Origin: Actinomycetota bacterium
GTDB lineage: Bacteria; Actinomycetota; Actinomycetes; Nanopelagicales; Nanopelagicaceae
Reading direction: 5' to 3'
DNA: 32,443 nt
NCBI GenBank assembly: GCA_005789205.1
Contig: SXYM01000076.1
Coordinates: forward strand, 1-32,443
This document shows, one piece after another, positions 500-5,961 of the stretch. Every line of letters starts with the position of its first letter. Within the stretch, counting starts at the first letter, position 1. The notes beneath the pieces were generated by a model. It ran no database searches. It saw only the letters and a program-made list of their open reading frames with translations, and was not told where the DNA came from. A program made the position numbers and the translations under genes.

Positions 500-1440
500 C
501 TTCTAGCTAAATCAGCTACTCCAACAAGACCTGCTTCATTGCCTAACTGAGCCGCAATAATCTGAGGATAAGGATGCTTGCCAGCAAATGGCATATTGCG
601 CTCCAGTGATTCACGCGTTGGCTTAAGAAGAATCTCACCTGCTTCAATTACTCCCCCACCAATAACAACACAGGCAGGATCTAAAAGAACAGAGAGAGAT
701 GCAATACCAGCGCCTAACCACTGGCCAGTTGTATTAAAAGCAGCCAATGCCACGGGGTCACCAGCGCGGGCAGCATCAGTAATAGCTTGACCTGTCAGTC
801 CTGCAACAGTTCCATCGCCGCGCGAGAGCAGGTTACGTGCAACTTCAGGACTGGCGTTGATTGCTTCTCGCGCATGGCGCAGTAATGCATTTCCTGATGC
901 ATATTGCTCGAAACAACCACGAGCACCACAGCCACAGATGTGTCCTTCTGGAACTACGCGCATATGCCCAAACTCTGCTGCAATTCCAAAAGCACCTCGG
1001 TAGAGAGCACCGTTAACAACAATACCTCCACCAATTCCAGTTCCAACTGTGAGCATCATCATGTGATCTTGATTCTTGCCTGCACCAAACTTTGCTTCAC
1101 CCCATGCTGCTGCATTTGCATCATTTTCAAGGACAACCGGAAGTCCGATGAGTTTGGTGAGTTGATTATCTAAATCAACACCATTCCAGTCGGCAATGTT
1201 GGGGGTTGCCAACATGGTCTTTCGATCAGAGGAAACAAAACCTGCAGCAGAAACTCCAACAGATGCGACTGAGTGTTGTGCGAGTAATTCTCTTGCGACA
1301 TCAGCAATTGTCTGAGTTAGCGCAATTCCACCTTGACGAGGCGTGTCTTTTCTTGCAGTAGTGAGAACTTTTCCAGCTTCATCAACAACGCCGCCCAGAA
1401 CCTTAGTTCCGCCAACATCGATACCAATTGTTAATGACAT
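496..1440 (-). CDS. ROK family sugar kinase, probably glucokinase
   Basis: The 314-residue protein has the full ROK plan. The phosphate-binding loop DVGGTK is at residues 8-13, ENDANAAAWGE near 105-115 holds the catalytic aspartate (about D107), GTGIGGG is at 133-139, EFGH is near 156-159, and the zinc site HICGCGARGC at 167-176 gives the conserved CxCGxxGC cysteines. These are what ATP-dependent bacterial glucokinases of the ROK group carry. Lack of any N-terminal helix-turn-helix argues against a ROK repressor. It would phosphorylate glucose (or a related hexose or amino sugar) in the cytoplasm at the entry to glycolysis. It lies 9 bases downstream of the SRPBCC gene on the same strand and is probably co-transcribed with it from that gene's leaderless promoter. 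Glucose specificity is inferred from family and length. Confidence 0.88.
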   Translation of the reverse strand: MSLTIGIDVGGTKVLGGVVDEAGKVLTTARKDTPRQGGIALTQTIADVARELLAQHSVASVGVSAAGFVSSDRKTMLATPNIADWNGVDLDNQLTKLIGLPVVLENDANAAAWGEAKFGAGKNQDHMMMLTVGTGIGGGIVVNGALYRGAFGIAAEFGHMRVVPEGHICGCGARGCFEQYASGNALLRHAREAINASPEVARNLLSRGDGTVAGLTGQAITDAARAGDPVALAAFNTTGQWLGAGIASLSVLLDPACVVIGGGVIEAGEILLKPTRESLERNMPFAGKHPYPQIIAAQLGNEAGLVGVADLARS

Positions 1441-1449
1441 TAAGTTTGA

Positions 1450-1887
1450 TTAAGCTTCTAGCGCAGTTTTAAGTTGTGCAAGTGCTTGATCAATTGTTGC
1501 CTTCTCAGCCTTTTGACGCATCATGGCTGGGATTGGCATTGAAAGTGAAACTCCCAATTGATATGTAACTTGGGTCGTATCTTCATCGATTGCCTTAATG
1601 GAATAAGAACCATCCATTCCGGTAAGAAGATCTGCATCATCGAGTGAGAAAGAAAGTTGCCCCGGAGCCTGGCTCCAGTCATAATCTAAAATCACGCGAT
1701 CTTTCATCATTCCTGCGTCAATAGTCATTTTTACCTTAGTGGCCCGGCCTTGGTCATCACGTTCAACGACCTCGCTGGACTTAATCGCACTCGACCAGGT
1801 TGGGTATTGGTCAAGGGCAAAAAGGGCTCCTTGGACATCTGCTAATGGGGCATCGATCGTGATTGTTGAACTGCTCAAATCGCTCAT
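1450..1887 (-). CDS. SRPBCC (START/polyketide cyclase-like) family protein
   Basis: This is a 145-residue single-domain protein. It starts with STITIDAPLADVQGALFALDQYPTWSSAIKSSEV, the first strand and helix of SRPBCC-fold proteins (I-D-A-P pattern followed by the Y-P-x-W motif). Alternating strands follow (KVKMTIDAGMMKDRVILDYDW, GSYSIKAIDEDTTQVTYQL), and a long C-terminal helix closes the hydrophobic cavity. Members bind lipids or other hydrophobic ligands, and the ligand is unknown here. A related protein sits next to the fadD15-type ligase in Mycobacterium (the Rv2185c region, from memory), so the divergent neighbour fadD suggests a lipid-related role. A TAACCT hexamer lies 6 bases before the ATG, so the transcript is probably leaderless and continues into the ROK kinase. 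Confidence 0.85.
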   Translation of the reverse strand: MSDLSSSTITIDAPLADVQGALFALDQYPTWSSAIKSSEVVERDDQGRATKVKMTIDAGMMKDRVILDYDWSQAPGQLSFSLDDADLLTGMDGSYSIKAIDEDTTQVTYQLGVSLSMPIPAMMRQKAEKATIDQALAQLKTALEA

Positions 1888-1893
1888 GGGACA

Positions 1894-1899
1894 AGGTTA
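1894..1899 (-). promoter_or_regulatory. Candidate -10 box (leaderless) for SRPBCC-ROK operon
   Basis: On the minus strand TAACCT is followed by 6 bases and then the ATG at 1887. There is no Shine-Dalgarno sequence between, so transcription would begin at or next to the start codon. No convincing -35 was seen. Confidence 0.5.
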
Positions 1900-1928
1900 C
1901 CCTCTTCCGCATTTCATATTCCTCACGC

Positions 1929-1934
1929 TAGCGT
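1929..1934 (+). promoter_or_regulatory. Candidate -10 box (leaderless) for the acyl-CoA synthetase gene
   Basis: TAGCGT is followed by TAGCCCC (7 bases) and the ATG at 1942. Spacing and lack of a ribosome binding site match the other leaderless starts in this window. Confidence 0.5.
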
Positions 1935-1941
1935 TAGCCCC

Positions 1942-3732
1942 ATGAATGAAGTCACAACACCTGCCCTCGTCCCTTCAGCTACTGCTGGCAATCTGACAAA
2001 CCTGATTGCTGAACGCGCCTGGTTTGAGCCAGAGCGCATCACCATGTCTCGCCCACTCGGCGATGGATGGCAAAGTGTCACTGCCCGTGAAGTTGACGAG
2101 GAGGTACGAGCAACTGCCAAAGGCTTAATCGCTGCAGGTATTCAAATCGGTGATCGTGTGGCAATCATGGCCCGTACTCGTTATGAGTGGACCATACTTG
2201 ATTTTGCTATTTGGTATGCAGGAGCTGTCGTAGTCCCAATCTATGACACATCATCTGCAGAACAGATCGATTGGATTCTTAACGACTCTTCTACTGTTGG
2301 CATCATTGTTGAAACTCCAGCACTGCGTGAATTAGTCCAAACAGTTCGACCTGCACACACTAAGCATGTCTGGGTGATGACTGAGGATGTTCTTACAGTG
2401 CTTCGCAATTCGGGTGCTCAAGTATCAGATGATGAAATTGAACGTCGTCGTGCAGCACTTGGCCCAGATACTTTGGCAACACTTATCTACACATCAGGTA
2501 CAACTGGAAAGCCAAAGGGTGTTTCACTCACACATGGCAACTTCTTAGCTGAGTGCGGAAATGTTGTGCAAGGTGCAAGTGATCTATTCCTTAAGCCAGG
2601 CGGATCAACTTTGCTTTTCTTGCCTGTTGCTCACGTCTTTGGCCGTATGGTTCAAATTGGTGCAATTAACTCAGGTCTACACCTTGCGCACTGCAGTGAC
2701 CCACTTGGACGTCTACCAATTGATCTAGCTTCCTTTAAGCCAACATTCGTTTTGGCAGTTCCACGTATTTTCGAAAAGATTTATAACGGAGCTGAAGCTC
2801 GCGCTGAAGCTGCAGGTAAGGGAAAGATTTTTAGAAAAGCAGCAGATGTAGCAATCGCTTACTCTGAGGCCTTGGATAAAAAGAGAATCTCTCCTATCCT
2901 TAAACTCAAGCATGGCCTCTTTGACAAGTTGGTCTACTCAAAGATTCGTGCGGGTATGGGTGGACGCGTTGAAGCTGCAATCTCTGGTGGTGCCCCGCTA
3001 GGAGTGCGTTTAGGCCACTTCTATCGTGGTGCCGGCGTAACAATTTTAGAAGGCTACGGTTTAACTGAAACAACTGCTGGTGCAACATTAAACTTAACCG
3101 GTGCACACCGCGTTGGTTCCGTTGGTCGTCCAATCCCAGGCACTTCAATCAAGATTGCTGAAGATGGCGAAGTTCTTATCCGTGGCGCAATTGTTATGCG
3201 TGGGTACTGGCAAAACGATGCTGCAAACGCTGAGGTTTTCGATTCTGAAGGTTGGTTTAAGTCAGGTGACTTAGGAAAGCTCGATGAAGAAGGCTTCCTC
3301 TACATAGTCGGTCGTAAAAAAGAACTTATTGTTACTGCAGGTGGAAAGAATGTTGCCCCTGCTGTCCTAGAAGATCGCTTACGGGCTCATCCACTGGTCA
3401 GCCAGTGCTTGGTCGTTGGTGATAATCAACCATTCATTGCAGCGCTTGTAACTATTGATCAGGATGCACTTAAGGGTTGGGTAACAAATCACAAGAAGGA
3501 AGGTGCCTCAATGGCTGACCTTGCTAATGATCCTGATTTGATTGCTGTTATCCAAACTGCAGTTGATGATGCAAATAAGGCCGTGAGCAAAGCTGAATCA
3601 ATCCGCAAGTTCACTATTCTTACAACAGATTTCACAATCGCTGGTGGACACTTAACTCAGAAGCTCTCTATTAAGCGACACGTCGTTGCGAAGGAATTCG
3701 CAAAGGAGATTGATCAGCTCTTCACAAAGTAA
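1942..3732 (+). CDS. fadD: Long-chain fatty acid-CoA ligase (AMP-forming, FadD15-like)
   Basis: The 596-residue protein belongs to the ANL superfamily and activates fatty acids to acyl-AMP and then acyl-CoA. Visible core motifs are the phosphate loop YTSGTTGKPKG at 183-193, GYGLTET at 371-377, the adenylate/hinge block GDLGKLDEEGFLYIVGRKKELI near 442-463, and the C-terminal GGHLTQKLSIKR whose lysine is the usual adenylation residue. Length and the extended middle section fit the long-chain acyl-CoA synthetase type rather than acetyl-CoA synthetase. Together with the fadA/fadB pair further right, it would feed beta-oxidation or acyl transfer to lipids. The start is supported by the leaderless -10 box just upstream. 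Two-component genes follow after only 4 bases, so this unit may be one transcript. A similar fadD-pimB neighbourhood is known in Mycobacterium. Confidence 0.93.
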   Translation: MNEVTTPALVPSATAGNLTNLIAERAWFEPERITMSRPLGDGWQSVTAREVDEEVRATAKGLIAAGIQIGDRVAIMARTRYEWTILDFAIWYAGAVVVPIYDTSSAEQIDWILNDSSTVGIIVETPALRELVQTVRPAHTKHVWVMTEDVLTVLRNSGAQVSDDEIERRRAALGPDTLATLIYTSGTTGKPKGVSLTHGNFLAECGNVVQGASDLFLKPGGSTLLFLPVAHVFGRMVQIGAINSGLHLAHCSDPLGRLPIDLASFKPTFVLAVPRIFEKIYNGAEARAEAAGKGKIFRKAADVAIAYSEALDKKRISPILKLKHGLFDKLVYSKIRAGMGGRVEAAISGGAPLGVRLGHFYRGAGVTILEGYGLTETTAGATLNLTGAHRVGSVGRPIPGTSIKIAEDGEVLIRGAIVMRGYWQNDAANAEVFDSEGWFKSGDLGKLDEEGFLYIVGRKKELIVTAGGKNVAPAVLEDRLRAHPLVSQCLVVGDNQPFIAALVTIDQDALKGWVTNHKKEGASMADLANDPDLIAVIQTAVDDANKAVSKAESIRKFTILTTDFTIAGGHLTQKLSIKRHVVAKEFAKEIDQLFTK

Positions 3733-3736
3733 CTAT

Positions 3737-4219
3737 GTGAGCCTTACACAGCGAATAAAACTCGCACAAGAGCTCCACGATGGCATAGCCCAAGATCTCG
3801 TGGGGTTAGGCTATGGGTTAGATTCTTTGTTGTTTCAAGAGGATGATGAGACTAAGCGTACTGCTTTGCGATCTGTGCGCTTTGATATCAACACATTGAT
3901 AGAGAAAGTTCGTAGCGAAATTCTCGAACTTCGCACAGAGCACAATGACCAAGAACTCCTTAGTTCTCAACCAGAATTTACTTATGAACTCAATAGAGTT
4001 TTTAGTGAAATCATCAACAATGTGACTGAGCATTCGCATGCGACTCGTCTGGATGTAATTTTCACTGATAATGGAATTGGTGGAGCTTCAGAGGTTGAGA
4101 ATCATTATGGAATGGCAGGAATATCTGAGCGAATTATGGCTTTGGGTGGTCATGTAGATATCCACTCTGATTTCACCGGTACTAATGTTGCAATTTCATT
4201 GGACCTGCTGACTCCATGA
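3737..4219 (+). CDS. Minimal soluble histidine kinase (HisKA_3 plus shortened HATPase)
   Basis: I choose the GTG at 3737 (160 residues). The ORF track's TTG at 3686 would overlap fadD by 47 bases. LAQELHDGIAQDLVGLG is a clear HisKA_3 H-box, with the phospho-accepting histidine at about 14, followed by the second dimerisation helix. The ATPase part shows an N-box (SEIINNVTEHSHAT, about 90-103), DNGIGG (111-116) and GMAGISERIMALGG (125-138). Between N-box and DNGIG there are only about 7 residues (RLDVIFT), where DesK-type kinases have a beta hairpin of roughly 16-19. About 9-10 residues, one strand of the sheet, therefore seem missing. No membrane segment or sensor domain exists. It overlaps the response regulator by ATGA, so the two form a coupled pair. 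Kinase activity is uncertain. It could act mainly as a phosphatase or be stimulated by a partner. Confidence 0.8.
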   Translation: MSLTQRIKLAQELHDGIAQDLVGLGYGLDSLLFQEDDETKRTALRSVRFDINTLIEKVRSEILELRTEHNDQELLSSQPEFTYELNRVFSEIINNVTEHSHATRLDVIFTDNGIGGASEVENHYGMAGISERIMALGGHVDIHSDFTGTNVAISLDLLTP

Positions 4220-4824
4220 GCAGATTGTTGATAGTTGATGATCATGCCCTTGTGCGTGAGGGTTTAAAGCGCGCACTTACCCATGAAGGCTTTAGTGAGA
4301 TTACAGAGGCTTCATCTGTTCTTGAGGCCCGCGCCTCTATCGCAGCATTACAACCCGATGTTGTGACAATCGATATAAATCTTCCAGATGGTAGTGGCTT
4401 TGAGTTAGTGAGCTGGATAAGAGGCATCTCCCAAGAAATTGGAGTTATTGTTTTAACGCTTAATGATCATGAGAATTATATACGCGCTGCCATGAAAGCA
4501 GGTGCTAGTGCCTTCGTATGTAAATCTGAACCCATTCCTACTCTAGTAGCTGCAATTAAACATAGCGTTGTTTCTCCACTTGGCTTTAGTGCCAAGGGAT
4601 TGGATAAAGTTTTTAAAAATACTCACAACCTTCTTACAGCCCGAGAATTTGATCTCTTGTCTCAATTAGAACTCGGTCAAACAACTGCGCAAATTTCTAA
4701 GAGTTTATTCATAAGTCCGGCGACCGTTAAAACACATCTAGCATCAATCTATAGAAAGTTAGAAGTAACTAACAGAACTGCGGCAATTCATGCCATGCAC
4801 GAGAAGGGATTATCTGGCAAGTAG
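4216..4824 (+). CDS. NarL/LuxR-type response regulator
   Basis: This is a 202-residue two-domain regulator. The receiver domain (about 1-118) has the acidic pair D8/D9, the phosphorylation site D53 in TIDINLPDGSG, switch residue T81 (VIVLTLND) and K103 (FVCKSEP), so it is intact. The C-terminal domain (about 138-196) is a GerE/LuxR helix-turn-helix: LLTAREFDLLSQLELGQTT, then ISKSLFISPATVKTHLASIY, and a final dimer helix. Phosphorylation presumably comes from the overlapping small kinase (ATGA overlap). Targets cannot be read from the sequence. Neighbours suggest envelope or lipid functions, which is a guess. Its last 15 bases overlap the convergent mannosyltransferase gene, with no terminator visible between them. 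Confidence 0.92.
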   Translation: MSRLLIVDDHALVREGLKRALTHEGFSEITEASSVLEARASIAALQPDVVTIDINLPDGSGFELVSWIRGISQEIGVIVLTLNDHENYIRAAMKAGASAFVCKSEPIPTLVAAIKHSVVSPLGFSAKGLDKVFKNTHNLLTAREFDLLSQLELGQTTAQISKSLFISPATVKTHLASIYRKLEVTNRTAAIHAMHEKGLSGK

Positions 4825-5961
4825 TTGGGAAAACTTGCTGCCCCAAATCTCCCAATTCCATTCTTTTTCAATCCAGGCTCGGCCTGCGCTACCCATATCC
4901 CGACGCAGTTTTTCATCACGTAAAAGTTGAATCACTCTGTTTGCTATTAACTCTGTCTTAGTTCCATCAACGACAAAACCTGTTACACCTTCTATAACCG
5001 CATCAGGTGCTCCCCCAGATGCACCTGCAATTACTGGTAGACCGCATGCACTTGCTTCCAGATACACAATTCCTAAGCCTTCTACCTCTAATCCACCAAA
5101 GCGCGATCTTGATGGCATCGCAAAGATATCGCCCACACAGATATAACCCGGTAAATCTTTATATTGAATACGGCCAATGAAGCTCACACTCTGTTCTAGC
5201 GAATGTTTCATCACTAGTTTTTCCAAGTGAGCCCTATACGGACCTTCACCGACAAGCAAAAGGTGAGCTTCTGGGACTTGAGTAAGGATCTGTGGCATTG
5301 ATTCGATGAGAAAATCCTGACCTTTGCGGTGCACAAGTCTGCCCACACTGACAATGACTTTCTTCTCACGTAGTCCCAGGGATTGTCGCAGGGATTTTGC
5401 ATCTACTTCCTTGAAATGATCAGCATCAATGCCTGGAGCAATTTTCTGCATAACTGATGCACTCTTCAATGTGAGAGCTTTGGAAATTGCCGTTCGAGTA
5501 AAATCGCCAAGATACGTTAGTGAATCAGTAGTGGATCCAATGCGTCGCAAAATTAAGTTGAATGGAAAAACCTTGGCCCACCAGACTTCATGTCCATGCG
5601 TAAGTGCAACTATTCGTAGTGCTCCGGCTTTGCGCAAAGTTGAAGACATCCAACCCAAAGGCGCAGCTGCTCCAAATGCCACGGTTTTAATACCTTGCTG
5701 GCTAACAATTCTGGCCACCGCGCGACTTATCCGTGGAGTCGGTAATAATATTTTTGCTTTATCTCTAATGACTTCAACACCAAAATTACGCAGCCATTGG
5801 GCGTCATAGTGCGCAGTTTCCTCTTGCGCTGAGGTGTAAACAATGATGCTCGACTTTGGTAATCGTTCAATCAAACCAATGATGAAGGTTTCTATGCCTC
5901 CAGCCCGTGGGCCAAAATCATTAGTTACGAATAGAGTTTTATTAGAAACGGCGTGCTCCAA
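4810..5961 (-). CDS. pimB: GT4 glycosyltransferase, PimB-like phosphatidylinositol monomannoside mannosyltransferase
   Basis: The 383-residue GT-B enzyme has an N-terminal acceptor domain beginning TLFVTNDFGPRAGGIETF (8-25) and FGAAAPLGW and ALTHGHEVWWAK (119-130). Its GDP-mannose domain has VSVGRLVHRKGQDFLIESMP (205-223), LLVGEGPYR and the GT4 EX7E-type segment EVEGLGIVYLEASACGLPV (292-310). The THGHEVWWA and RFGGLEVEGLGIVYLEA signatures are what I associate with actinobacterial PimB', which adds the second mannose to phosphatidylinositol monomannoside on the inner membrane face. The start is a TTG at 5961, overlapping the last 20 bases of the NlpC gene, and no better start lies downstream before the first strand. 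Clustering with fadD and an NlpC/P60 gene resembles the mycobacterial pimB' locus. Another GT4 mannosyl- or glucosyltransferase specificity is possible. Confidence 0.83.
   Translation of the reverse strand: MEHAVSNKTLFVTNDFGPRAGGIETFIIGLIERLPKSSIIVYTSAQEETAHYDAQWLRNFGVEVIRDKAKILLPTPRISRAVARIVSQQGIKTVAFGAAAPLGWMSSTLRKAGALRIVALTHGHEVWWAKVFPFNLILRRIGSTTDSLTYLGDFTRTAISKALTLKSASVMQKIAPGIDADHFKEVDAKSLRQSLGLREKKVIVSVGRLVHRKGQDFLIESMPQILTQVPEAHLLLVGEGPYRAHLEKLVMKHSLEQSVSFIGRIQYKDLPGYICVGDIFAMPSRSRFGGLEVEGLGIVYLEASACGLPVIAGASGGAPDAVIEGVTGFVVDGTKTELIANRVIQLLRDEKLRRDMGSAGRAWIEKEWNWEIWGSKFSQLLAR

Follow-up and report, generated by a model that had tools for sequence, protein, structure and literature searches.

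The histidine kinase gene at positions 3737–4219 of the window (the whole stretch of DNA that was analyzed, 32,443 nucleotides) belongs to a group of short kinases in Candidatus Planktophila that carries two linked deletions in the ATP-binding (CA) domain, has a single origin, is held under purifying selection, and keeps its catalytic residues invariant. The Bergerat fold, shared by gyrase, Hsp90, MutL, and histidine kinases, is commonly regarded as a five-stranded unit that cannot be divided. A lineage of over 50 species in which two strands and a helix have gone and the catalytic residues have stayed bears on what this fold can spare; the resulting fold looks smaller than that of any solved relative found in this analysis. 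As long and short orthologues occur naturally at a single locus, the question of fold reduction is open to direct testing. These organisms are among the most abundant lake bacteria, with the trimmed protein as their sole HisKA_3 kinase.

The kinase gene and its conserved locus

The source genome of the window (76% complete, 1.07 Mb) belongs to the genus that includes Candidatus Planktophila versatilis. The open reading frame of the kinase starts with GTG, at a position in agreement with its orthologues, and encodes 160 residues. The features of the locus are as follows (positions of the window).

1942–3732, + strand: FadD11-like long-chain acyl-CoA ligase, a conserved partner; its stop lies 4 nt 5′ of the kinase start
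3737–4219 (stop included), + strand: sensorless HisKA_3 histidine kinase of 160 aa with a compact CA domain (Pfam, orthologues)
3743–3955, + strand: DHp domain, helices of residues 3–34 and 38–73 (AlphaFold2, HisKA_3), with the H-box ELHDGIAQDL at 3770–3799 (H14, D15, and Q19)
3935–3988, + strand: site of deletion 1, from DHp helix 2 to the N-box helix; a helix and β1 of the long orthologues are missing
3968–4036, + strand: N-box helix, residues 78–100 (AlphaFold2), with E91, N95, and H99 invariant; the motif NNVTEHSHAT is at 4016–4045
4043–4066, + strand: single β-strand TRLDVIFT and deletion 2 (11 residues), standing in for the β2–β3 hairpin (strand at 104–111 in the model)
4067–4081, + strand: G1 box DNGIG, with D111, G113, and G115 invariant
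4109–4132, + strand: G2 box GMAGISER, with G125, G128, E131, and R132 invariant
4216–4824, + strand: NarL/DesR-type response regulator of 202 aa (Response_reg and GerE)
4810–5961, − strand: convergent glycosyltransferase-like gene (family name by inspection), the conserved edge of the locus

All four motifs lie in frame, and the coordinates given for them in an initial annotation, which had described a sensorless 160-residue kinase, were confirmed. HisKA_3 matches residues 6–68 of the window kinase well above the curated Pfam cut-off (36.1 bits versus 24; E = 1e-8), whereas HATPase_c stays below its own (15.2 bits versus 26.4; E = 0.03); the latter scores 26.2 for another short copy and 31.6 for a long one. 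Among the short orthologues, all 52 match HisKA_3 and all 52 give some HATPase_c match (best, 3.9e-7). By domain content, the protein is thus a HisKA_3 (DesK/NarX-type) kinase and, by fold, a reduced variant of one. A sensor or membrane input domain, usual though not strictly defining for HisKA_3 kinases, is absent, with no membrane segment in the protein (highest 19-residue Kyte–Doolittle mean, 0.77). This absence, also pointed out initially, is general, being shared with the long-form congeners and the sister genera.

The kinase stop and the regulator start overlap as ATGA (4216–4219), and the regulator retains D8, D9, D53, and K103, its phospho-accepting Asp and its Lys being invariant; the proposed translational coupling to an intact NarL-type regulator is therefore borne out. 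The acyl-CoA ligase is probably co-transcribed with the kinase, the gap between the two genes ranging from −11 to +30 nt within the genus. The order of ligase, kinase, regulator, and convergent glycosyltransferase is kept in the genus wherever the contig reaches far enough, and the locus is conserved in all 20 loci examined from other genera of the family. Judged from gene content, the conserved coupling to the ligase suggests that the two-component system may be tied to the lipid or acyl-CoA state. No hybrid kinase adjoins the locus, and the gene is the only HisKA_3 gene in each of the 14 genomes examined, 13 of which are near-complete. As a separate observation, the tight set of ligase, kinase, and regulator (1942–4824) is conserved throughout the family. 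A viral origin of the kinase was rejected, as no relatives of it were found in viral contigs.

Two size classes of the kinase and their origin

We surveyed 135 genomes of the genus, of which 121 gave a kinase match; of the 115 copies extracted, 112 were complete. The complete kinases fall into two classes, of 152–166 aa (n = 52) and 181–203 aa (n = 60), with none in between. From the N-box Asn to the DxG Asp, short copies have a spacing of 16 and long copies one of 27; from the phospho-accepting His to the N-box, the spacing is 79–83 versus 94–104 (mostly 103–104, and once 118; elsewhere up to 106 in long orthologues). Because both spacings are reduced in the short class, two linked deletions are indicated. 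In five copies, the automatic motif assignment hit the wrong Asn (His-to-Asn spacings of 16, 51, or 57), and the representative alignments show the same two patterns. The spacing of about seven residues noted initially between the N-box and DNGIG is exactly seven in the window kinase (R104–T110). The second deletion, which shortens the segment before the N-box by ~24 residues in every short copy, had been missed. The spacing from the DxG Asp to the G2 box is 14 in both forms.

The orthologue search that had been proposed shows the deletion to be conserved: 52 Ca. Planktophila species are trimmed alike, including closed genomes (G014, G067, and G143), and 60 congeners keep the full form at the same locus. 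No short form was found outside the genus among 395 genomes of the class (large genomes being scored for their best candidates only), nor outside the group among the loci kept from a scan of named genomes. Within the genus, a kinase match is absent from G004 (94% complete) and G133 (95% complete), by either loss or a contig gap.

The short/long label requires one change on each of three trees: one built from the neighboring ligase and glycosyltransferase with the kinase left out (SH-aLRT, 97), one from the columns shared by all the kinases (SH-aLRT, 99), and one from the regulator (SH-aLRT, 91). There is thus no need to invoke lateral transfer or several separate origins for the short form. 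Since the long copies share the spacing of 27 with the outgroup kinases, the short form is the derived one, and its occurrence in 52 species as a single derived clade marks a fixed evolutionary change rather than a local defect. Median dN/dS is 0.20 for the short and 0.18 for the long copies, and comparing the window copy with that of a close relative whose genome is closed gives 0.08. The 52 short rows, of 38–94% identity, are invariant at H14, D15, Q19, E91, N95, H99, D111, G113, G115, G125, G128, E131, R132, and G148, in line with the earlier statement that every nucleotide-contact motif survives. In both classes, conservation of the DHp domain exceeds that of the CA domain (0.70 versus 0.57 in the short and 0.68 versus 0.49 in the long copies).

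Predicted folds of the long and short forms

The AlphaFold2 model of a long orthologue (pLDDT, 83) comprises the DHp helices, a helix at 74–84, β1 at 90–95, the N-box helix at 102–123, β2 at 127–134, β3 at 138–145, a helix at 160–169, and β4 and β5; its CA domain has five strands and fits those of VraS and DesK at 2.3–2.9 Å. The model of the window kinase, of low confidence (pLDDT, 75.5; pTM, 0.38), contains the DHp helices, the N-box helix at 78–100, a strand at 104–111, a helix at 124–135, and two further strands. Thus, of the mixed five-stranded sheet and three helices of the GHKL/Bergerat fold, all five strands appear in the long model and three in the low-confidence short model, and from the comparison of the two, the missing elements are a helix, β1, and β2. 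The loss of one strand proposed initially is accordingly revised by both the spacings and the models to two strands and a helix, although a trimmed CA domain as such is supported. The CA domain of the short model does not superpose on that of DesK (9.9 Å over 85 columns), and no solved CA domain fitting it well was found. The tests made do not support the short form as a complete Bergerat-fold ATPase.

Residues 105, 107, and 109 are hydrophobic in 98–100% of the short rows, and residues 104, 106, 108, and 110 in 6–13%. This composition supports one continuous strand at 104–111; a mini-hairpin within the eight-residue stretch is unlikely in view of the strict alternation, which is unlike the copies of sister genera with an N-to-D spacing of 23, where polar turns are kept. 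In the usual fold, β2 leads the chain away from the N-box helix and β3 brings it back, so that the DxG motif ends near the start of β2. From strand geometry (3.3 Å per residue), a single eight-residue strand would instead set the DxG Asp ~23 Å from the start of β2, and at this separation the N-box helix could not simply keep its usual packing. Either the N-box helix would be re-docked or the neighboring protomer would provide the pairing strand. According to the description of DesK and ChpT, the floor of the nucleotide pocket is formed by β3, β4, and β5, and the pocket is closed by the lid and the central helix (PMC3433190). As these floor strands are retained, the part removed would lie away from the nucleotide.

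Bacillus subtilis DesK (PDB IDs: 3EHF, 3GIG, and 5IUJ) and the CA domain of VraS (4GT8) are the closest solved relatives by profile and, in the case of the long form, by fold as well; they have in common with the window kinase the HisKA_3-type DHp domain with HDxxxQ, the N-box, G1, and G2, and are likewise paired with a NarL/DesR-type regulator. Both have a sensor input and a five-stranded CA domain, whereas the short form has no input domain and three strands in its model; in the profile alignment, DesK carries an 11-residue insertion at the hairpin. The long orthologues (for example those of P. versatilis CP016774 and IMCC25003, and those of other genera) occupy the same locus and are sensorless with the same DHp domain and motifs, but keep β1 and the hairpin, the N-to-D spacing being 27 (some genera have 23). 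Full-length sensors such as NarX/NarQ, UhpB, MctS, and LiaS (NCBIfam) resemble the window kinase in the core profile, and it falls far below the cut-offs of their families. Spo0B is a sensorless phosphotransferase of similar size, made of a DHp domain and a degenerate CA domain whose nucleotide pocket is lost or closed. ChpT, a sensorless DHp–CA protein of similar size, also has its pocket lost or closed (PMC3433190), whereas the motifs are kept in the window kinase. A profile search brought up no solved structure that is compact in this way, and no described case of such a trimmed kinase was found in the open-licence literature.

Stepwise reduction and the proposed activity of the short form

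In another actinobacterial family, one locus (L291 of genome G059, 536–4764) contains a ligase, a 592-aa kinase, a regulator, and a glycosyltransferase, and probably represents the ancestral state of the stripped kinase. This kinase consists of a hydrophobic region, GAF, HisKA_3, and HATPase_c; together with a 542-aa kinase (L289), likewise from outside the Planktophila family, it has a catalytic core homologous to that of the window kinase and differs from it in the hydrophobic N-terminal region, the GAF domain, and the full CA domain (N-to-D spacing, 27). Given a membrane- and GAF-containing outgroup kinase at the same locus, the stripping appears to have been stepwise. The matched kinases in other genera of the Planktophila family are ~180–220 aa, and the N-to-D spacing is 23 in genera g32, g34, and g40. 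Several g34 copies, as well as G307, lack the DxG Asp or GxG, and ATP binding has probably been lost in g34, as far as its motifs tell. Because the CA domain degenerates further in these genera, kinase activity is not indispensable everywhere. The g34 kinases L270, L271, L277, L278, and L282 combine a degenerate G1 box with a retained HDGIAQ; in one example, SLENDGLTTHP, both the first Asp and GxG are gone. A kinase from the same locus in another genome (L267 of G318, 2511–3060, − strand) has a shorter hairpin, with an N-to-D spacing of 23, and its ATP lid is almost gone (DDGVGLFGVSEL).

We consider it rather probable that the short form is a working cytosolic HisKA_3 kinase/phosphatase on a compact fold, stripped in steps during genome reduction. 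A signaling protein would first have lost its membrane and GAF input region, family-wide; later, in a single event within a subclade of Ca. Planktophila, the helix, β1, and β2 of its ATP-binding domain would have followed. The central N-box helix and β3–β4–β5 would remain, along with all contact residues and a short lid. The catalytic residues, all kept in more than 50 species, give it the look of a working enzyme on a smaller fold, and the invariance of H14, D15, Q19, and the nucleotide-contact residues down to 38% identity makes an active bifunctional kinase/phosphatase the likeliest reading. The protein would dimerize through the DHp helices and hold ATP in a reduced β3–β4–β5 pocket; H14 would be phosphorylated and its phosphate passed to D53 of the co-translated regulator. 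The regulator may in turn be dephosphorylated with the use of Q19, the Gln of HDxxxQ being the phosphatase residue of HisKA_3 kinases (PMC5231405). Conceivably, a metabolite or a partner in the cytosol sets the balance of the two activities, perhaps with a tie to the acyl-CoA ligase of the operon.

The main rival, on account of the better conservation of DHp than CA in both classes and the loss of G1 in other genera, is a phosphatase-biased or phosphatase-only role, to which we attach a distinctly lower probability. The HDxxxQ DHp domain would dephosphorylate the regulator, which would receive its phosphate from another kinase or a small-molecule donor, and the trimmed CA domain would bind nucleotide weakly and act only as a conformational regulator. 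Besides the invariance of HDxxxQ and the sister genera that erode CA and lose the G1 Asp while keeping the H-box, this role would agree with the dispensability of the His for phosphatase activity in HisKA_3 kinases (PMC5231405) and with BumS, a known phosphatase-only sensor (PMC11796366). A CA domain free of ATP would, however, be expected to lose some nucleotide residues, as happened in the sister genera, and these are invariant in 52 diverged species.

Somewhat more doubtful still is a composite ATP site, in which the lone strand of each protomer would pair antiparallel with its counterpart across the dimer, with residue 107 on the two-fold axis. Each strand would serve as β2 for one site and β3 for the other, with the N-box from one chain and G1 and G2 from the other. 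Such an arrangement would account for one strand both leaving the N-box helix and ending in DxG; with 103 paired to 111′, residues 105, 107, and 109 of the two strands would share a face, which their composition permits, and no room would be left for β1, whose loss always accompanies that of the hairpin. Against this, simple edge trimming also predicts the loss of both outer strands, and the parity would match by chance in about one case in two.

A ChpT/Spo0B-like histidine phosphotransferase, with a dimeric DHp and a degenerate CA domain relaying phosphate without autophosphorylation, would fit the similar size and sensorless architecture and the DesK-like CA fold that ChpT has without autokinase activity (PMC3433190). 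It is nevertheless quite improbable: the lid of ChpT is replaced and its pocket closed, whereas here the N-box, G1, the lid length, and G2 are intact, with the D-to-G2 spacing equal to that of the long form, and the kinase adjoins one NarL-type regulator and no hybrid kinase. Finally, a local defect, assembly error, frameshift, or decaying pseudogene, which the low score of the window kinase against HATPase_c might suggest and to which full-hairpin orthologues in the same neighborhood had been expected to point, can be set aside, since those orthologues do exist (60 of them) but the trimming recurs in 52 species including closed genomes, with open frames, low dN/dS, and invariant motifs; the clean reading frame described initially is thereby upheld.

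Several MAGs in public records under the title Bifidobacterium breve or Streptomyces griseus (L161, L169, L181, L183, L187, L195, and L202) carry a Planktophila-type kinase and look like mislabeled lake MAGs.
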